From contig OY282373.1 of assembly GCA_958295805.1 (NCBI GenBank), positions 653,001-717,000 of the forward strand: 64,000 bases of DNA, given 5' to 3'. Positions within the stretch are counted from its first letter, which is position 1. Every line of letters starts with the position of its first letter. Shown piece after piece: positions 55,061 to 64,000 of the stretch. The DNA is from an uncultured Nitrospirales bacterium. GTDB taxonomy: Bacteria > Nitrospirota > Nitrospiria > Nitrospirales > UBA8639. Position numbers and translations under genes: made by a program. The notes beneath the pieces are model-generated. The model was not told where the DNA came from, made no database searches, and saw only the letters and a program-made list of their open reading frames with translations.

Positions 55061-56506
55061 GTGGTTATTCGTCCGTCTCTTCCCATTTTGCTTGTGTCTG
55101 GTTTGGGCAGTCTTGCCGTCGCGTTGGTCTCGCCTGACCTCTGTCGGGCTTCAGGAAACAACTCCGCGCCTTTGGACCTCACAACCTCCGCGGTCGGGTA
55201 TTTTGCGCTGGGCATTTTTGTGTTGGCGTATGCGTTGGTCATGGCCGAGGAGTTTACGCATCTCCGAAAATCCAAACCCGTCATTTTGGCCGCGGGGATC
55301 ATCTGGGCGTTGGTGGCTCTGTCGTATCCCGGCAGTGACCCTCACGTCGTTGAACGCGCGCTGCGTCATAATCTTCTCGAATATGCGGAGTTGATGTTAT
55401 TTCTGCTTGCCGCCATGACGTACATCAACGCCATGGAAGAGCGCCTGGTCTTTGAGAGTTTGCGGGCGTGGCTCGTGCGGAAGGGGTTTACCTACCGGCA
55501 ACTGTTCTGGATCACGGGCATCCTGGCGTTTTTTATTTCGCCGGTCGCCGATAATCTGACGACCGCGTTGCTGATGTGCGCCGTGGTCCTGGCGGTCGGG
55601 GCGGAGAATCCCCGGTTCGTGAGTCTGGCGTGCGTCAACATTGTGGTGGCGGCCAACGCCGGAGGGGCGTTCAGTCCCTTTGGCGACATCACGACGTTGA
55701 TGGTGTGGCAAAAGGGAATCGTGGAGTTCTTCACGTTTTTCCTGCTGTTTCTTCCGTCGGTGGTCAACTATGTCGTGCCGGCCGGGTTGATGCACTTTGC
55801 CGTGCCTCGGGTGTCGCCAACTCCGTCGGACGAGGTGGTGGTCATGAAGCGAGGGGCAAAAATTATTATGCTCTTGTTCTTCTTCACCATTTGTACAGCG
55901 GTGAGTTTTCACAATTTTCTTCACCTGCCGCCGACGATAGGAATGATGACCGGCCTGGCCTACTTGCAGCTTTTCGGGTTTTACCTGAAAAAAACCCACA
56001 ACCGGTACGCGGAGCCGGGAACGTGGAGTGAGGAGAAAGCTCAGGGAACCATCGGCGACGTGGTGGCGTTCGATGTTTTTAGAAACATTGCCCGGGCGGA
56101 ATGGGATACGTTGCTGTTTTTTTACGGCGTCGTTCTGTGCGTGGGAGGGTTGGGTTTTCTCGGCTACCTCGCGGTGGTGGCGCAGGTGATGTATATTGAC
56201 TGGGGCCCCACGTTTGCGAATACGATGGTTGGCATCCTGTCCGCCATTGTGGACAATATTCCGGTGATGTTTGCCGTGTTGACCATGTCTCCCGACATGT
56301 CTCAGGGACAATGGCTGTTGGTGACCTTAACGGCCGGGGTCGGGGGAAGCCTGTTGTCGATCGGGTCGGCCGCGGGCGTGGCCCTGATGGGGCAGGCGCG
56401 AGGCAAGTATACGTTCTTCGGCCATCTCAAATGGACGCCGGTGATTGCTCTGGGGTACGCTGCGAGCATCCTGGTCCATCTGTGGGTGAACGCGAGTGAA
56501 TTCTGA
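55061..56506 (+). CDS. nhaD: NhaD-type Na+/H+ antiporter
   Basis: 481 residues from GTG. An N-terminal signal-like segment is followed by about a dozen membrane helices. SPVADNLTTALLMCAVV, GGAFSPFGDITTLMVW and VDNIPVMFAVLTMSPDM are the conserved stretches of the NhaD/ArsB-like ion transporters. NhaD exports Na+ in exchange for protons and is typical of marine or alkaliphilic bacteria. Its closeness to SulP and DabA-Mrp genes suggests that it maintains the Na+ gradient for carbon uptake. Confidence 0.93.
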   Translation: MVIRPSLPILLVSGLGSLAVALVSPDLCRASGNNSAPLDLTTSAVGYFALGIFVLAYALVMAEEFTHLRKSKPVILAAGIIWALVALSYPGSDPHVVERALRHNLLEYAELMLFLLAAMTYINAMEERLVFESLRAWLVRKGFTYRQLFWITGILAFFISPVADNLTTALLMCAVVLAVGAENPRFVSLACVNIVVAANAGGAFSPFGDITTLMVWQKGIVEFFTFFLLFLPSVVNYVVPAGLMHFAVPRVSPTPSDEVVVMKRGAKIIMLLFFFTICTAVSFHNFLHLPPTIGMMTGLAYLQLFGFYLKKTHNRYAEPGTWSEEKAQGTIGDVVAFDVFRNIARAEWDTLLFFYGVVLCVGGLGFLGYLAVVAQVMYIDWGPTFANTMVGILSAIVDNIPVMFAVLTMSPDMSQGQWLLVTLTAGVGGSLLSIGSAAGVALMGQARGKYTFFGHLKWTPVIALGYAASILVHLWVNASEF

Positions 56507-56752
56507 GTGAGCGGCACGCGTGCATGTGAATCGGACGGCATTTCTGGATTCCCGATTAAAGATGTCGGGAATGACAGGGGTGGATGTCGGGAATGGCAGC
56601 GGGATGTCACTGGTCACGAGCCACTGGTCACGAGACTAGCCATGAGCTACTGGTCGCTGGTAAAACATGTTGCTCCCTGGAAATTCTCAAGATAAAATTC
56701 CTTTTGTCGAACAAGATTTTTTTGCATGGCTCTGATCTTAAGGGGGAAGGCC
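56507..56752. other. Intergenic region with degenerate repeats
   Basis: Between nhaD and the SulP gene: a diverged palindrome (TTCCCGA/TCGGGAA) with two more GTCGGGAATG words in tandem (56543-56590), then a 15-bp direct repeat carrying CACTGGTCACGAG twice (around 56608-56636). No gene. It matches the pattern of arm duplication seen at 15.3 and 16.8 kb. Confidence 0.6.
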
Positions 56753-58402
56753 ATGAACGTTGATGGAATAGAGGTTCCGAGAGGTACGCTTGCCGGGTTT
56801 CGGCAAACCTGGAAGGCCGACCTGCTTTCCGGGTTTCTGGTGTTTCTGATTGCGTTGCCGTTGTGTCTTGGCATTGCCCTGGCATGTGGATATCCCGCCA
56901 TTGCCGGCATTTTTACCGCCATTATCGGCGGTCTGTTCGCCACGCTCTTCAGTAATTCAGAACTCACGATCAAAGGCCCGGCCGCGGGACTCATCGTGGT
57001 CGCCATCGGCTGCGTGACGGAATTCGGATTTACCGGCGGGCAGGATCCCGCTGCCGACTTCCAGGCCTATCGATTGGCGCTCGGCGTCGGGGTGGCGGCA
57101 GGCATCATTCAAATTCTGTTCGGGCTCTTCCGTGCAGGGATCCTCGGCGAATTTTTTCCGCCGACGGCGGTCCATGGATTATTGGCGGCCATCGGGGTCA
57201 TTATCATCGCCAAGCAGTTTCCGATTGTGATGGGGCTCAGCCCCGAAGGCAAGCCGTTGGAATTGCTGGCGAAGATTCCCACGTTCGTCATGGAGATGAA
57301 TCCCCTTATTGGATTGATCGGGCTCGTCAGCCTGCTCATCATGTTCGGGTATCCCCTGGTCACGCACCCCACGTTGAAAATGATTCCGTCGCCGATGATC
57401 GTGTTGTTCGTCTCGGTCCCCATGGGAATGTATTTCAACGTCGGCCGGGAAGGCACTTACACCTTCAACGAGCAGACCTACGCCTTAGGCGCGAAGTTTC
57501 TGGTAGACGTGCCGATGGACATGTTCAGTGCGCTGACCTTTCCTGATTTTTCCGGGTTGGCGACGACGACCGGCGTCAAATACGTCGTCATGTTTGCCTT
57601 GATCGGGAGTCTGGAGTCGTTGCTCAGCGCGAAGGCCGTTGATCAGATCGATCCATATCGGCGAAAGACCAATATGGATCGGGACATGCTGGCCGTCGGG
57701 GTCGGCAATACCTTATCGGCGTTTGTGGGGGGGCTCCCCATGATCTCGGAAATCGTGCGAAGTCGGGCCAACATCGACAATGGAGGAAAGACGCGGTTTG
57801 CCAACGTGTTTCATGGATTCTTTTTGCTGGTCTTCGTGGCACTGGTCCCGGGCCTGATTAATCAGATTCCGCTGGCTGCGTTGGGGGCGATGCTGGTCTT
57901 TACGGGTTACCGGCTGGCTTCCCCCCACGAGTTCATCCACGTGTATCATTTGGGCAAGGACCAGCTTCTTGTGTTCGTGTCCACGATCGTGGGTGTGCTC
58001 GCCACGGACCTCCTGATGGGCATTGCAATCGGCATCGGAGTCAAAATCATCATTCACGTCATCAATGGCGTTCCGATCCCCTCGTTTTTCACGTTGCAGG
58101 CTCAGGTCACGCAGGAGAACGTCGACTCTGCGACCATTGTGGTGCGAGAATCGGCGATCTTCAGCACGTGGATTCTTTTGCGCGGACATCTCCATCGCCT
58201 GCTTCACGAAGGGAAACGAGTCACCCTGAATCTCGATGAGACGAGATTCGTCGATCACACCGTGATGGCGAAGCTTGATGAATGGAAAACGGAATTCGAC
58301 GAAAAGAAGAGTACCTTGTCGATTGAGGGATTAGATCAGCATCAGCCCATGGCGGATTCGAGTCTGTCCGCCAGGAAAAAGCCGAAAAGCCGGCAGGCGT
58401 GA
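56753..58402 (+). CDS. SulP-family anion transporter (likely bicarbonate or sulfate)
   Basis: 549 residues from the ATG with a strong AAGGGGGAAGG site; an ATG nine codons earlier lacks one. [23 protein letters not shown] at the start and GPAAGLIVV are SulP landmarks, with about 10-12 helices and a short STAS-like C-terminal domain (about 455-530; [21 protein letters not shown]). BicA in cyanobacteria is a Na+-dependent bicarbonate SulP, and the neighbours here favour that role, but substrate cannot be read from sequence alone. Confidence 0.88.
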
Positions 58403-58410
58403 CGTGAGGC

Positions 58411-58779
58411 TCAGCGTGACGGTTCGAGGTCTTTGGCGAGGGTAAAGACGATCATTCGCTCACTGATGTGCGTTTCAACGTCGGTAAACAACCCGGTGAC
58501 TTCGGCTCCGGTAATGGCGGTAATCTGGTTGCAAAGTCGTTCACGACCTTGGACGATGAGGTTCTGCCTCATGCGTTTGACCATGTCGATCCCTTCGGAA
58601 TTTTTGGCAAGCTGGCGTTCCGCGGGAGTCAAGACGCCTTTGAGCCTGACCAGGACCATGTCACGAAGGATGAACGCCTTGACTTCCGTTGGCCCACGCC
58701 CCATAAATTCTTGTTCAAATTTGATGACGGCATTGCGGATGGCCGTCTCAGACTCGCCTTTGGTGGGGAAGTTTTGCAT
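58411..58779 (-). CDS. mpsC: MpsC-like protein (DUF2294)
   Basis: 122 residues. FEQEFMGRGPTEVKAFILRD, MVLVRLKGVLTPAERQLAK and ITGAEVTGLFTDVETHISER are characteristic of DUF2294, named MpsC after the membrane-potential-generating system MpsABC of Staphylococcus aureus. In that system MpsB is a DUF2309 protein like the one encoded 294 bases away and MpsA is an NuoL-like subunit. It converges with the SulP gene and diverges from dabA, so the dabA leader lies between their starts. Its role is not settled. Confidence 0.85.
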   Translation of the reverse strand: MQNFPTKGESETAIRNAVIKFEQEFMGRGPTEVKAFILRDMVLVRLKGVLTPAERQLAKNSEGIDMVKRMRQNLIVQGRERLCNQITAITGAEVTGLFTDVETHISERMIVFTLAKDLEPSR

Positions 58780-58859
58780 GGGACGGACTCGTTGAGGGAA
58801 CAGAAATTTCTTGAGCCTGCTGAGAACCCTTGATATAAATGATATAAGCGATTGCCTTT

Positions 58860-58992
58860 TGAGAGGTCAAGGATAGGCACCTGCTTCCTGATGATGTCCC
58901 GCGGGCGGGCAGGAGTTCCGAGTGTACGCCTAACCTGAGATGAAGGCTGTGGGGTGGCTGACTCCCCGAGATACGGGTCAGCCACAGTACAA
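58860..58992 (+). promoter_or_regulatory. Structured leader or small RNA upstream of dabA
   Basis: Several nested inverted repeats: GGATAGGC with GCCTAACC (one mismatch), enclosing CCTGC/GCAGG and CCCGC/CGGG stems, then a perfect 9-bp stem GTGGCTGAC (58954-58962) with GTCAGCCAC (58977-58985). A terminator follows at once. This is the layout of a riboswitch or attenuator, but I recognise no known class. Confidence 0.5.
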
Positions 58993-58993
58993 G

Positions 58994-59043
58994 CCAACCG
59001 CGTTTCCCTGAGGTGGAGAGAACGGAAGCGGTTGGTTTTTTTT
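58994..59043 (+). terminator. Rho-independent terminator before dabA
   Basis: Arms CCAACCGC (58994-59001) and GCGGTTGG (59028-59035), extended by TTCC/GGAA, followed by eight T. It ends 30 bases before the dabA start, so either a short RNA ends here or dabA expression needs read-through. Confidence 0.88.
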
Positions 59044-59072
59044 GTCCTCTTTCCCGGCGCGATACGCGAAGC

Positions 59073-62000
59073 ATGGTGAGTCTCACGTCAATGCAGACGA
59101 TTTCCCAGGAAGAACGCGAACAACTCCGGCAGATTGTTGCCCGGGCCAGCGAACCGATTCCGCCCTTTTGGCCCATGCAGATCATGGTGGCCCAGAATCC
59201 CATGCACGGCCTGGAATATCTTCCCTTTGACCAGGCCGTTCGGAAAGGCCAACGTCTGCTGGGTGGGAACGGCTATCTGCCTCTTGATAAATATCGTCAG
59301 TTGTATCGAGAAGGACGCATTCCAGCCGAAAGCCTCAACCGGGCGTTCGCGCGCGTGGGGCCTCAACGCGAACAACGTGAGTCTCTCAGGGTCGGGAATC
59401 GTGAGATCACCGCACGGGACGTATGGCACTGGCACGTGGTGTCCGGGTTTGAGGCGCTGGACCCTGCCTTGTTGCAATGGGAACTCGGCGATGAGGGAAC
59501 TGCTTGGCGATTTCGTCGGGACCTTTCAGACGAATCCAGAACACGAATCATCGACCGAACGATCAGGGAATGTGAGCAATGTCGGGCGCATCCCGAGGAG
59601 GCGTATCTCTCGAAGCTGTGGACGGGCACGTTGGCGGCGTTAGGGCTGTCTGATTTTTTTCCCGAGGGACCAACGGCCGGGCATCCGAACTCAACCGTTG
59701 CGGCGGCACCCCGCGGCTCCATCGACGTTGCTCTGCCGGCCCAACGAACAATCAGCGATTGGCTGGACGCCTTGGCCGGCGCTGAACTGGTCGAACGGAT
59801 CAACAACGAACTCATCAAATGGTTGGCGGCGTTTGCTGATGAAGGATTAGCAGGATGGGCGATGCCCTCCAGAGACTCGGGATTCTATGCGGCGTGGCGA
59901 GATCTGGCCCAACGTGATCACGCCGGTCGCTTGTTGGGCATTCCCGATTTTCGGCAGACCGTTCGGGATCTTCCACCTGAACCCGAGGCCGCGATGACGT
60001 GGAGTTTGCAGCGTCTCGGCGTGCCTCAGGAACAATGGAGCGAGTACCTGTCACGGCACTTGTCCCAATTGCCGGGTTGGACGCGGTTCATTCGTTGGCT
60101 TGAGGTCAATCCCGCGTATCACGCGCAACGCAACCATCCCGTTGATCCGATTCAATATCTGGCGGTGCGCTTGTTGTATGAGTCTGAATTGACGCGAGTC
60201 GTCTGTCGACGGGAATGGGGAATTGATGGAACTCTGCCCGCGTTGATTGCGTATTGGCAGGACCGACCTGATGACTATCAACATCGGCTCGGAGGCGGCG
60301 CTCACGCGGTTGATCCCGTGACGCATGCCGTCTGCCGGGACGCCTGGCGATTGTTTCACTTGGCCCAATGTCTGGAATTATCGCCTCTCGACCTGCAAGA
60401 CCTTTCCGTGGCCGAGGCGCGAACGTTACTGGAGTGGCTGGATGCTTTTCCTCAGGATCAGCATGGCCCGGTGTGGCTTGAGGCGTATGAAGATGTCTTT
60501 CGGACCGACGTCGTCAGCAAACTCGCGGCTCATCAAGGGACGGTGCCGCCCCTGGAAACGCGGCCGCGAGCGCAACTCGTGTTCTGTATTGACGTGAGAT
60601 CGGAATCGTTCCGTCGGCACGTCGAAGCGCAAGGCCCGTATGAAACGTTCGGGTTTGCCGGGTTCTTCGGTATTCCCATCAGTCATCAAGCCTTTGATTG
60701 TGAGGACCGGTCCGCCTTGTGTCCGGTGTTGCTGTCTCCCAACCACGCGGTAACGGAGATGCCTCGACTCGGAGCCGAACGCGCGTTGCAGCACTATTCG
60801 ACGGCCACGCGATGGCATCAACTGAGTCATCACGTGTTTCACGATCTGAAGCATCATCCCGTGGGGTCAATGATGCTGGTTGACGTGCTGGGGTTCTTCT
60901 TCAGCCTCGGGCTAATCGGCAAAACGCTGATTCCCAACTCGTTTCACGCGATGAAGTCATTCATCCAACGATGGTGGACGCATCCGGTTCCGACGCGGGT
61001 CTCAGTGTCCTCACCGTGTGATCCGCGCAATCCACAGTGGAGCGATGTCAAGGCCGAGGGGATTCCCTCGGGGCTCGCCCAAGGATTCTCTCTTGCCGAA
61101 CGAGCCACCTTCATCGAGACCGGACTGCGGGTGATGGGGCTCACGGGAAACTTCAGCCGGTTGGTGGTACTCTGCGGCCATGGAAGTGAGACGGACAACA
61201 ATCCGTATTTCGCGGCCTTGGATTGCGGGGCTTGCGGGGGGAATCCCGGGGACGCCAACGCGCGGGTGTTTGCCGCCATGGCCAACGAGCCGGCGGTTCG
61301 GCAAATCCTCAAGGGCAACGGACTCGTCATTCCCGAGGATACGTGGTTTCTTCCGGCCAAGCACAATACCACCACGGACCGGGTGACGTTCTATGATCTG
61401 GAAGATTTCCCCGAGAGTCACGCGGAAGATTTACGGACGTTGCGGCAGGATTTGGAACACGCGGGGATGACTCAAGCATTGGAACGCTGTCGTCGCATGC
61501 CCGGCGCGCCGAAAAAGATTGCCCCCCACAAGGCGTTGGCGCACGTTGAGGAACGCAGCCGTGATTGGGCCAATCCTCGACCGGAATGGGGGCTGGCCGG
61601 GAACGCGGCCTTTTTAATCGGGAGACGACGGCTGACCAAAGGCCTGGATTTAGGCGGTCGGGTTTTCCTGCACTCCTATGATCCCACGTCAGACGCCGAA
61701 GGGACTCTTCTCGAAAAAATCATGACGGCCCCCTTGATCGTCGGGGAGTGGATCAACACGGGCTATTATTTCTCCGCGGTTGATCCTTGGCACTACGGAA
61801 GCGGAAGCAAGGTGATCCACAACGTCGTGTCGGGCGTGGGCGTGATGCTGGGCAGCCAAAGCGATTTGCAAATCGGCTTTCCCTTGCAGACGGTGAACGA
61901 CGGCGACGTGCATTATCACGAGCCGATGCGGCTCCTGGGGATCATTGAGGCGACACCGTCCGTCGTCTCGTCCATCATTCAGAAACATGCGATTCTTCAA

Positions 62001-62138
62001 CGCCTGTTCCATAATCAATGGCTCAATCTGTTGGCCCTCGATCCGAACACGTTTGCGTTTCATCGCTATCGTCCTGACGCGACGTGGGAGCCCATGGTTC
62101 ACTGCCGTGAACGGGTTGTGACTTCTGGCGAGGCATAA
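59073..62138 (+). CDS. dabA: DabA/MpsB (DUF2309) inorganic-carbon uptake subunit
   Basis: 1,021 residues from ATG 59073; an ATG six codons later is the alternative, and neither has a strong ribosome site. The zinc site of DabA, related to beta-carbonic anhydrases, is complete: C505 and D507 in VFCIDVRSE, H703 in CGHGSETDN, C718 in LDCGACGG. The H-to-C spacing of 15 equals that in the characterised Halothiobacillus protein as I recall it. DabA is thought to hydrate CO2 in one direction with energy from a NuoL-like membrane partner. Here Mrp-type membrane subunits follow at once. Confidence 0.95.
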   Translation: MVSLTSMQTISQEEREQLRQIVARASEPIPPFWPMQIMVAQNPMHGLEYLPFDQAVRKGQRLLGGNGYLPLDKYRQLYREGRIPAESLNRAFARVGPQREQRESLRVGNREITARDVWHWHVVSGFEALDPALLQWELGDEGTAWRFRRDLSDESRTRIIDRTIRECEQCRAHPEEAYLSKLWTGTLAALGLSDFFPEGPTAGHPNSTVAAAPRGSIDVALPAQRTISDWLDALAGAELVERINNELIKWLAAFADEGLAGWAMPSRDSGFYAAWRDLAQRDHAGRLLGIPDFRQTVRDLPPEPEAAMTWSLQRLGVPQEQWSEYLSRHLSQLPGWTRFIRWLEVNPAYHAQRNHPVDPIQYLAVRLLYESELTRVVCRREWGIDGTLPALIAYWQDRPDDYQHRLGGGAHAVDPVTHAVCRDAWRLFHLAQCLELSPLDLQDLSVAEARTLLEWLDAFPQDQHGPVWLEAYEDVFRTDVVSKLAAHQGTVPPLETRPRAQLVFCIDVRSESFRRHVEAQGPYETFGFAGFFGIPISHQAFDCEDRSALCPVLLSPNHAVTEMPRLGAERALQHYSTATRWHQLSHHVFHDLKHHPVGSMMLVDVLGFFFSLGLIGKTLIPNSFHAMKSFIQRWWTHPVPTRVSVSSPCDPRNPQWSDVKAEGIPSGLAQGFSLAERATFIETGLRVMGLTGNFSRLVVLCGHGSETDNNPYFAALDCGACGGNPGDANARVFAAMANEPAVRQILKGNGLVIPEDTWFLPAKHNTTTDRVTFYDLEDFPESHAEDLRTLRQDLEHAGMTQALERCRRMPGAPKKIAPHKALAHVEERSRDWANPRPEWGLAGNAAFLIGRRRLTKGLDLGGRVFLHSYDPTSDAEGTLLEKIMTAPLIVGEWINTGYYFSAVDPWHYGSGSKVIHNVVSGVGVMLGSQSDLQIGFPLQTVNDGDVHYHEPMRLLGIIEATPSVVSSIIQKHAILQRLFHNQWLNLLALDPNTFAFHRYRPDATWEPMVHCRERVVTSGEA

Positions 62139-62141
62139 GCG

Positions 62142-62633
62142 ATGCTGAAGGTTACGATGGAGATGCTTCTCAAAACGGCCGCGTTGTTTATCATCTGGCT
62201 CATTTTGTCGGGAACGTCTCATCCGTTTAACGTGGGTCTGGGGCTGGTGGCGTCTTTTGTCGTGGCATGGTTGAATTCCGGCCACGCCGATTCGCCGTTC
62301 CGACTCGTCCCCGCGTTACGAATGCTCTGGTATCTGCCCTGGCTCTTTGGGCGAATCGTTCAAAGCAGTCTTCATCTGACGGCACTCATTCTTCATCCCG
62401 CTTTGCCGATTGCGCCGACACTCATTTATTATCGAACCAGGTTGCAGAGTCAGGCGGCCATCGTTCTGTTGGGAAATTCCATCACGCTAACTCCGGGCAC
62501 GATCACGGGTGAAGTCAATGAGCAGGAACTTGTCGTCCACGCTCTGGATGAGGAATCGGGCCACGATCTGACCACGCGCCGCCTTGAACAAAAGATTGCC
62601 CACGTGTTCCAGGAACAGACGAGTTCAGAATGA
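62142..62633 (+). CDS. mnhE: Mrp-type antiporter subunit E
   Basis: 163 residues, three bases after dabA. Two N-terminal membrane helices (TAALFIIWLILSGTSHPFNVG onward) and the soluble tail with LLGNSITLTPGTITGE and VHALDE are typical of MrpE/MnhE. Its stop overlaps the next start (ATGA). MrpE helps assemble the multi-subunit Na+/H+ antiporter and is a good marker for Mrp rather than Nuo. Confidence 0.93.
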   Translation: MLKVTMEMLLKTAALFIIWLILSGTSHPFNVGLGLVASFVVAWLNSGHADSPFRLVPALRMLWYLPWLFGRIVQSSLHLTALILHPALPIAPTLIYYRTRLQSQAAIVLLGNSITLTPGTITGEVNEQELVVHALDEESGHDLTTRRLEQKIAHVFQEQTSSE

Positions 62634-62896
62634 AATTCTTTTTTCTGTTCGTGTTGATCGCTCTCGCCGTCCTTATTCTGGTCTATTTGTATCGCGTGGT
62701 CCAAGGGCCGACGATCTATGATCGCGTGTTAGGTCTGAACGGGATTTCAACGAAAGCCATTATTCTGTTGGTCCTGATCGGGACCGTCTACGAACGAGTC
62801 GATATGTTCGTGGATATCTCCACGGGGTATGCCCTGTTGAATTTGGTCGGGGCCTTGGCCATTGCGAAATTTCTTGAACAGCGAGGGAGCGTGTAA
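62630..62896 (+). CDS. mnhF: Mrp-type antiporter subunit F
   Basis: 88 residues, three membrane helices, with YRVVQGPTIYDRVLGLNGIS and the conserved DISTGYALLNLVGALAIAKF. This is the MrpF/MnhF pattern. It begins by ATGA overlap with mnhE and abuts mnhG directly. Confidence 0.93.
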   Translation: MKFFFLFVLIALAVLILVYLYRVVQGPTIYDRVLGLNGISTKAIILLVLIGTVYERVDMFVDISTGYALLNLVGALAIAKFLEQRGSV

Positions 62897-63196
62897 ATGT
62901 CCGCGTTGGCCATTGCGCTCATTCTCGCGGGATTGTTTTTTCTGGTCGTCGCGGCAATCGGAATGCTGCGCTTGCCGGACGTGTTTACCCGTTGCCATGC
63001 CCTGTCACTGACTGATTCCCTGGGAGCGTTTCTGGTCTTGGCCGGGTTGGCCGTTTATCAGGGATTCAGCCTGAACCTGCTCAAAATTCTGGTGGTCCTC
63101 ATGCTGATTTATCTGCTCAATCCCGTTATTGCCCACGCCACCATTCGAGCGGCTCTTCGCTCGGGACTCAGACCGTGGAGGAGAGAATCGCCATGA
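62897..63196 (+). CDS. mnhG: Mrp-type antiporter subunit G
   Basis: 99 residues with three membrane helices. AAIGMLRLPDVFTRCHALSLTDSLG is the MrpG/MnhG/PhaG signature (FYxRxHAxTK-like). It starts immediately after mnhF and overlaps the following gene (ATGA). With E and F it forms the small membrane part of the Mrp complex. Confidence 0.93.
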   Translation: MSALAIALILAGLFFLVVAAIGMLRLPDVFTRCHALSLTDSLGAFLVLAGLAVYQGFSLNLLKILVVLMLIYLLNPVIAHATIRAALRSGLRPWRRESP

Positions 63197-63723
63197 CGTT
63201 TTCATTTGAAGTTCCTCTTCTGATTCTCCTGATTCTGACGGCGGCGGGAGCCATTCTGGTCAAAGACCTGGTGCCGGCGGTGTTTATTTTGGGGTCCTAC
63301 AGTTTCTTTTTAGCGTTGGTGTGGGCGTGTCTTGGCGCCGTGGACGTGGCGTTTGTTGAAGCGGTCGTGGGCGCCGGCTTGGCCACGGTGTTTTTTCTGT
63401 TGACGCTCTTCAGGACGGCTCAAAAGGATACCCGCCTGTATCCCTCTTCCTATCGCGGGGCCGCGCTGATCGGATTGCCGCTCCTGGGTTTCCTCATTTT
63501 GTATGCAGCCAATGACCTTCCCAAGTTTGGCGATCCTGCGTCTCCCGCAAGCGTTCACGTTTCTCCCGTTTACCTGGAAAACAGTCTGCACGACACCCGG
63601 ACGCCCAACGTCGTCACCTCGGTGCTCATGGATTATCGGGCTCTGGACACGTTGATTGAAACCGTTGTGATTTTTACGGCCGGGATTGCCTGTGCCTTGT
63701 TGCTGGGGAGGAGCCGGGAATGA
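63193..63723 (+). CDS. DUF4040/MbhD-like subunit joined to an MnhB N-terminal-like domain
   Basis: 176 residues, mostly hydrophobic. The first part (ILVKDLVPAVFILGSYSFFL; VDVAFVEAVVGAGLATVFFL) is the DUF4040 type that forms the C-terminal end of MrpA in other bacteria and MbhD in membrane hydrogenases. The last part (TPNVVTSVLMDYRALDTLIETVV) resembles the MbhE or MrpA tail. Thus the MrpA C-terminal segment is a separate protein here, before mnhB. Starts by ATGA overlap. Confidence 0.85.
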   Translation: MTFSFEVPLLILLILTAAGAILVKDLVPAVFILGSYSFFLALVWACLGAVDVAFVEAVVGAGLATVFFLLTLFRTAQKDTRLYPSSYRGAALIGLPLLGFLILYAANDLPKFGDPASPASVHVSPVYLENSLHDTRTPNVVTSVLMDYRALDTLIETVVIFTAGIACALLLGRSRE

Positions 63724-64000
63724 TCCACGCGCACGATAGTCTGATCGTGCTGATGTTGGGACGGATCCTGATTCCCTTGGTGCAATTGTATGGACTGTAC
63801 GTGTTGTTCTTCGGACAGTATGGCCCGGGTGGGGGATTCGTGGGTGGGGTTATTTTTGGCACGAGTATGATTTTATCCGTCCTCATTTTTGGTCACGGCG
63901 CTTCGTACAGCACCATGGCGAGGACGGTGCGCCACGGTGATGGAGTGGGGTTGCTGATTTTTGCCGGAGTCGGCGGATTGTGTCTGATCGGGGGAGGGGA
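63720..64000 (+). CDS. mnhB: Mrp-type antiporter subunit B (3' end outside window)
   Basis: ATG overlaps the upstream stop (ATGA) and the frame stays open to the window end (about 93 codons). LGRILIPLVQLYGLYVLFFG, then QYGPGGGFVGGVIFGTSMIL, is the conserved start of MrpB/MnhB. By analogy mrpC and NuoL-like subunits (MrpD or DabB/MpsA) should follow. Confidence 0.9.
   Translation, partial: MIHAHDSLIVLMLGRILIPLVQLYGLYVLFFGQYGPGGGFVGGVIFGTSMILSVLIFGHGASYSTMARTVRHGDGVGLLIFAGVGGLCLIGGG

Follow-up and report, generated by a model that had tools for sequence, protein, structure and literature searches.

The question raised by this locus is which partner serves a DabA protein when no short single DabB gene adjoins it. 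The window, i.e. the whole stretch of 64,000 nucleotides that was analysed, comprises bases 653001-717000 of the complete 2,904,372-base genome of an uncultured Nitrospirales bacterium. Towards its end the gene dabA (59013-62138, + strand) is followed by genes of an Mrp-type Na+/H+ antiporter, seven of which separate it from a gene for a NuoL-like protein of 703 residues. The observed gene order, its conservation, the co-occurrence and co-inheritance of the genes and the complementarity of their residues were taken together, and DabA, one NuoL-like subunit and the Mrp set are likely to constitute a single ion-driven assembly for the uptake of inorganic carbon. DabB is most likely not missing; its role would be taken by an antiporter subunit having a long lateral helix built of repeats.

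DabA was recognised by Pfam PF10070 (E = 1.3e-269) and by the DabA2 structure 9rd0_A (E = 2.4e-119), and its nearest relatives in the sequence search were DabA proteins from Nitrospirales assemblies. The open reading frame starts with GTG, the ATG at 59073 being the likelier start. The dabA-mrp set reads as one operon because only 3 nucleotides lie between the stop of dabA and the start of mrpE and several later genes overlap. On the + strand dabA is followed by mrpE (62142-62633; PF01899, E = 1.5e-31), mrpF (62630-62896; PF04066), mrpG (62897-63196; PF03334), an mbhD/E-like gene of the DUF4040 kind representing the C-terminal part of MrpA as a gene of its own (63175-63723; PF13244 and PF20501; its listed start overlaps mrpG and the real start is probably slightly later) and mrpB (63720-64000 in the window, with its end at 64169 in window numbering; PF04039). 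The sequence-only reading had pointed beyond position 64000 for mrpC, mrpD and NuoL-like genes. These were all found in the genome in that order, mrpD encoding 489 residues and the NuoL-like gene lying at L013:13034-15145 (locus L013, where the window position is the L013 position + 53000), together with a NuoM-like gene for 510 residues (L013:15179-16711), which ends the operon and is followed by unrelated genes. The Mrp set is thus full (E, F, G, MbhD/E, B, C and D with the NuoL-like protein as the equivalent of the N-terminal part of MrpA), and the NuoM-like gene is extra to it. Redox or quinone-binding subunits of complex I were found neither among the operon genes nor directly downstream. 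The genome contains ten PF00361 genes, three at the locus and seven at 742-749 kb and 1362-1367 kb, and the latter seven grouped in the tree as the NuoL, NuoM and NuoN types of complex I.

The comparison with other loci revealed DabA in 127 of 296 Nitrospirota genomes and two kinds of neighbourhood. In type D, a NuoL-like DabB of about 565 residues, often with a second membrane protein of 437 residues, directly precedes DabA. In type M, to which the present locus belongs, DabA is followed by mrpE-F-G-MbhDE-B-C-D and the NuoL-like and NuoM-like genes, with SulP usually, and MpsC and NhaD often, upstream; the DabA protein has about 1000-1040 residues, or 1240-1265 in one subclade. About 20 loci, distributed over at least five phyla (Nitrospirota, Nitrospinota, Acidobacteriota (Bryobacterales), Myxococcota and Gammaproteobacteria), show the type-M order, and this recurrence excludes a chance grouping of the genes. 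Within Nitrospirota it occurs in the family of the window genome and in another family (L090), and outside it in records named Bryobacterales (L022), Myxococcota (L023), Nitrospinota (L024) and Gammaproteobacteria (L025). In the DabA tree, type M formed one group (support 95) separate from type D (96), and several genomes carry both types.

The NuoL-like subunit was singled out by the residues of the ion path, the test being which antiporter-like subunit of the locus has lost the Lys-Asp pair of transmembrane helix 12 (TM12). Both residues are gone in all 21 type-M NuoL-like subunits, with Tyr at the Asp position in every one, as they are gone in 31/31 DabB proteins; the pair is present in 7/7 complex I NuoL. 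The TM12 Lys is kept in each of seven type-M MrpD proteins (one of them from a DabA-free second cluster at L090) and the TM12 Glu in each of six NuoM-like subunits. The NuoL-like subunit alone among the three antiporter-like subunits therefore shows the gap of DabB type, which makes it most likely that the role of DabB is played by one antiporter subunit. The Lys-acid pair typical of the MrpA/NuoL-type subunit of Mrp, Lys408/Glu409 in MrpA of B. pseudofirmus (PMC9568556), is likewise missing from every one of the 21 sequences. Nearly all of them keep the remaining half-channel columns (Lys229, His254, Lys305, two His and Lys342).

The counterpart of this gap was sought in DabA. In DAB2 of Halothiobacillus neapolitanus DabA reaches into DabB with a finger whose Glu444 replaces Lys399/Asp400 of NuoL TM12; Glu444 is essential, as both E444A and E444Q abolish activity (PMC13144422). 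The profile alignment placed the membrane finger of the window DabA at residues 613-655 (60849-60977, + strand), with Asp624 as the equivalent of Glu444, and by analogy with DAB2 Asp624 probably stands in the ion path. The acid is Asp in all readable type-M DabA and Glu in DabA paired with DabB (L116 has Glu; L077 is not readable and its sister L155 has Asp). In an AlphaFold2 model of mean predicted local distance difference test (pLDDT) score 57, DabA residues 617-638 and 641-655 appear as a helix pair. The catalytic residues are also in accordance with DabA2. The motif C525-I-D527-V-R529 (60585-60599, + strand) aligns with C351, D353 and R355 of DabA2, whose roles are described (PMC13144422), and supplies a Zn ligand and the Asp-Arg dyad, while the remaining Zn ligands H723 and C738 (61179-61226, + strand) align with H524 and C539; A549 is conserved as well.

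The lateral helix, measured from the NKxYxDE motif to the C-terminus, has 134-190 residues in the NuoL-like subunits as against 80 or 111-117 in complex I NuoL of the same genomes and about 30 in DabB. The extension consists of a repeat of about 27 residues, WLWRVVDLRGIDRVVVGIGQxSVGxA, and its lengths fall in steps of about 27-28 residues (134-139, 162-163 and 190). This helix serves as a brace for the antiporter subunits in Mrp and complex I (PMC7419157), and its length suggests that the NuoL-like subunit belongs to a larger arm. In 2M complex I an insertion of 26 residues in the lateral helix is linked to one more pump subunit (PMC9040806). A ruler reading, with one lateral repeat for each extra pump subunit, was given up as a firm statement since the copy number differs between genomes while the set of antiporter-like genes is constant, and the repeats outnumber what the gene set accounts for.

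The genes also occur and decay together. Among the 49 genomes of the family, with the NuoL-like gene counted at 50% identity or above, 35 carry both type-M DabA and the NuoL-like gene, one DabA alone, one the NuoL-like gene alone and 12 neither (Fisher p ~2e-9, uncorrected for relatedness, several of the 12 being close relatives or incomplete). In the genome with the lone DabA (G312) the contig ends inside mrpD, and in that with the lone NuoL-like gene (G310) it ends beside mrpE. MrpE is nearly confined to the DabA-mrp cluster in these genomes, a second copy elsewhere being seen in G300 and G308, and seven genomes of the genus of the window, all without the set, lack it. Decay was joint too: locus L028 (G227) retains DabA residues 9-537, mrpE, F and G and a broken NuoM-like gene, and half-DabA relics are kept in G065 and G200. 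Decayed type-M operons were observed beside an intact type-D dabB-dabA pair (L028:10001-15593, L059 and L078); at such loci one CO2-uptake system has apparently been replaced by the other, type M by type D. The claim of the sequence-only reading that DabA is wired to a whole Mrp antiporter gains from the conserved order, the co-occurrence, the joint decay and the confinement of MrpE; the part that did not stand is a DabA without DabB, as the NuoL-like subunit shows the TM12 loss of DabB. The refuting case of a classical dabB beside another dabA and an Mrp operon that functions independently of DabA is not that of the window genome, since a genome-wide search gave one DabA and the sole MrpE lies at the locus.

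The machine proposed from these sequence data would operate as follows. DabA, a Zn protein resembling beta-carbonic anhydrase, would be seated on the NuoL-like subunit from the cytoplasmic side, with its finger pushed into that subunit, so that Asp624 takes the place of the lost TM12 Lys-Asp pair in the ion path. Ion flow through this composite path would drive the one-way hydration of CO2 to bicarbonate inside the cell. The long lateral helix would tie the NuoL-like subunit to the NuoM-like subunit, MrpD and the small Mrp subunits. Because the NuoM-like subunit and MrpD keep their ion-path residues, a larger arm exchanging H+ and Na+ probably feeds the CO2 step or is coupled to it. The whole would resemble the membrane arm of complex I with DabA replacing the redox arm. 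The docking of DabA on a NuoL-like subunit that acts as DabB has good support among these steps, and the placing of that subunit in one arm with the NuoM-like subunit, MrpD and the small Mrp subunits has moderate support; the direction of the reaction and the coupling to Na+ are inferred. It is possible, though rather doubtful, that a multi-subunit complex I-like arm exchanging Na+ and H+ has DabA as its catalytic head and couples CO2 hydration to several ions per CO2, Na+ included.

Several results weigh against the single assembly. The Glu of TM5 (Ile151 in DabB2) is kept in 21/21 NuoL-like subunits and lost in DabB, and Arg175 is lost in the NuoL-like subunits and kept in DabB; therefore the gating of the NuoL-like subunit may differ from that of DabB. 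The tree was undecided on whether its sister is DabB or complex I NuoL (support 84-91; approximately unbiased test p 0.48 for the complex I NuoL alternative). The Glu/Asp difference of the finger does not count as repeated evidence, as it is a single change on the DabA tree. The AlphaFold2 predictions for DabA and the NuoL-like protein of L019, made from 11 and 7 sequences, were too poor for fold searches (mean pLDDT 57 and 56). In G081 some 260 kb separate dabA from the mrp cluster, both being intact; the DabA of this genome was considered as an orphan counter-example and rejected, the mrp cluster being elsewhere in the same genome. In addition DAB2, the best-studied relative, runs on H+ without Na+ (PMC13144422).

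Alternatively, DabA and the NuoL-like protein as DabB would by themselves make up a two-part DAB, and Mrp would be a separate, only co-expressed Na+/H+ antiporter that adjusts pH or Na+ homeostasis to the hydration of CO2 and the protons released by it. In favour of this, the residue loss of DabB type is confined to the NuoL-like subunit. DabA with one partner suffices for activity elsewhere (PMC13144422), and the adjacent Mrp, NhaD and SulP match the Na+-circuit model for Candidatus Nitrospira alkalitolerans (PMC7784846). Against it, the NuoL-like subunit has a lateral helix of 134-190 residues, longer than the 80-117 of complex I, and such a helix braces neighbouring antiporter subunits in known complexes and is lacking in DabB; the NuoL-like protein replaces the N-terminal part of MrpA, so that the Mrp set would otherwise be left without its MrpA core; and MrpE almost never occurs in the family without type-M DabA. 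This explanation is regarded as unlikely, although a real minority chance is left to it. A locus of Candidatus N. alkalitolerans that has mrp, NuoL/NuoM-like and SulP genes of the kinds seen here was published purely as an antiporter plus a bicarbonate symporter, with DabA unmentioned (PMC7784846), and this speaks for a plain group-3 Mrp antiporter with dabA at its head by chance and separate functions. The order conserved in at least five phyla, the joint loss with relics and the disappearance of the TM12 ion pair of MrpA from the NuoL-like subunit render such a coincidence very improbable.

The DabA complex could also run in reverse, either releasing CO2 from imported bicarbonate for enzymes of the reductive tricarboxylic acid (rTCA) cycle or exporting ions at the expense of the inorganic-carbon gradient. 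The ferredoxin-dependent carboxylases of the rTCA cycle use CO2, bicarbonate may enter through SulP, and the NuoM-like subunit and MrpD have intact ion-path residues. Ion export was an early proposal for DUF2309 operons (PMC5700660). Against this, known DabA is described as working in one direction only, with CO2 hydrated and the reverse reaction blocked (PMC13144422), and the compared active-site residues are identical here, which leaves the reversed direction a very slight probability. The single assembly of DabA, NuoL-like subunit and Mrp set is retained, and DabA and antiporter probably form one machine at the type-M loci of marine-type nitrite oxidisers and of scattered bacteria of other phyla.

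The likeness to known systems is partial in each case. The locus shares with DAB2 (DabA2-DabB2; 9rd0, 9rd8 and 9rd9) the DabA family, the Zn ligands, the Asp-Arg dyad, an acid-bearing finger hairpin and a NuoL-type partner without the TM12 Lys-Asp pair; DAB2 differs in its single partner of 551 residues with no long lateral helix, in the absence of Mrp genes, in the Glu of its finger (Asp here) and in the loss of the TM5 Glu (kept here). MpsAB(C) of Staphylococcus aureus also combines a DabA homologue, MpsB, with a NuoL-like protein, has mpsC nearby and has a reported link to Na+, but it possesses one membrane subunit and no Mrp genes. Group 1 and group 3 Mrp antiporters have E, F, G, the C-terminal part of MrpA, B, C, D and the TM12 Lys of MrpD in common with the locus, whereas here DabA heads the operon, a NuoL-like subunit without the TM12 pair replaces the N-terminal part of MrpA and a NuoM-like gene is extra. 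In cyanobacterial NDH-1MS, CO2 hydration is placed on a NuoL-type subunit. With the proposed assembly it shares CO2 hydration on a complex I-like membrane arm (PMC13144422) but is redox-driven and has Cup proteins for DabA, while the present operon holds no redox genes. The nhaB-bicA-mrp-nuoM/nuoL locus of Candidatus N. alkalitolerans, compared by its published description, has the same kinds of genes including two NuoL/NuoM-like genes after mrpD and is probably of the same type; its 2020 text names neither DabA nor MpsC and explains the locus by Na+/H+ antiport driving BicA (PMC7784846). In clade C of the DUF2309 operons in COGNAT (2017, PMC5700660) NuoL is preceded by a DUF2309 gene and accompanied by SulP and NuoM; the text examined gives no account of Mrp E, F, G, B, C and D genes or of the residue logic. 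No description of DabA as part of an Mrp operon was found in the literature searched, outside which lies the original DAB paper (10.1038/s41564-019-0520-8).

If the several-ion arm proves true, energised CO2 uptake would have a third architecture in addition to the redox-driven NDH-1MS and the two-part, H+-driven DAB. The single assembly gives a proposed function to loci hitherto taken as Na+/H+ antiport alone, allows the model in which the DabA finger completes the ion path of NuoL to be tested directly on sequences and suggests that non-redox catalytic heads can be mounted on complex I/Mrp arms. The question of the ion, H+ in DAB2 and Na+ according to the claim for MpsAB, can be put to the test within a single complex.

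The carbon metabolism of the window genome was also examined. ATP-citrate lyase is present and the RuBisCO large subunit was not found, on account of which the organism looks like an rTCA autotroph. Beta- and alpha-carbonic anhydrase were not found in the genome either, the gamma type lying outside the search, and DabA is the sole recognised CO2/bicarbonate enzyme among the classes searched. The DabA complex would thus be a main supplier of cytoplasmic bicarbonate and a plausible source of inorganic carbon for an autotroph with ATP-citrate lyase but without RuBisCO or alpha-/beta-carbonic anhydrase. The carbon concentrating module suggested earlier does not fit in the carboxysome sense, given ATP-citrate lyase and no RuBisCO, and fits as a supply of inorganic carbon.

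Upstream of dabA lie nhaD for a NhaD-type Na+/H+ antiporter (55061-56506, + strand; NCBIfam NF038006, 649 bits; Pfam CitMHS), a gene for a SulP-family anion transporter (56726-58402, + strand; PF00916, E = 6.5e-57) and mpsC of the DUF2294 family (58411-58779, - strand; PF10057, E = 3e-35), which is divergent from dabA and single-copy in the genome. Every named gene was supported at its coordinates by Pfam, with NCBIfam for NhaD, and the layout described at first sight, MpsC divergent from DabA, then Mrp E, F, G, DUF4040 and B, flanked by NhaD and SulP, was confirmed throughout; the earlier interpretation of NhaD, SulP, MpsC, DabA and Mrp as a whole is partly supported. The adjacency of NhaD and SulP is kept in several relatives (L018, L019, L059, L062 and L150), and both may help the CO2-uptake complex. 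The label BicA was rejected for SulP, which scored 121 bits with the NCBI model against a cut-off of 880. Across Nitrospirota MpsC goes with DabA: of 18 MpsC genes in 14 single-contig genomes, 16 have a DabA gene no more than 8 kb away (about 1% expected by chance for each). It is not an established functional part of MpsAB, mpsC having been reported as dispensable (PMC6689103).

Some further arrangements of the two locus types were noted. A type-D dabB-dabA cassette on the opposite strand lies inside the type-M operon between dabA and mrpE at L066, L067 and L158/L159 (G133, G137 and G307). The second, DabA-free Mrp cluster of L090 (G157) stands back to back with the type-M cluster and is a possible natural control. 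Type-D loci L082, L083, L086, L087 and L104 carry two tandem DabB-like genes along with the membrane protein of about 437 residues; this protein gave a weak NuoM-like score, and the two examined (L088 and L094) lack most ion-path residues.

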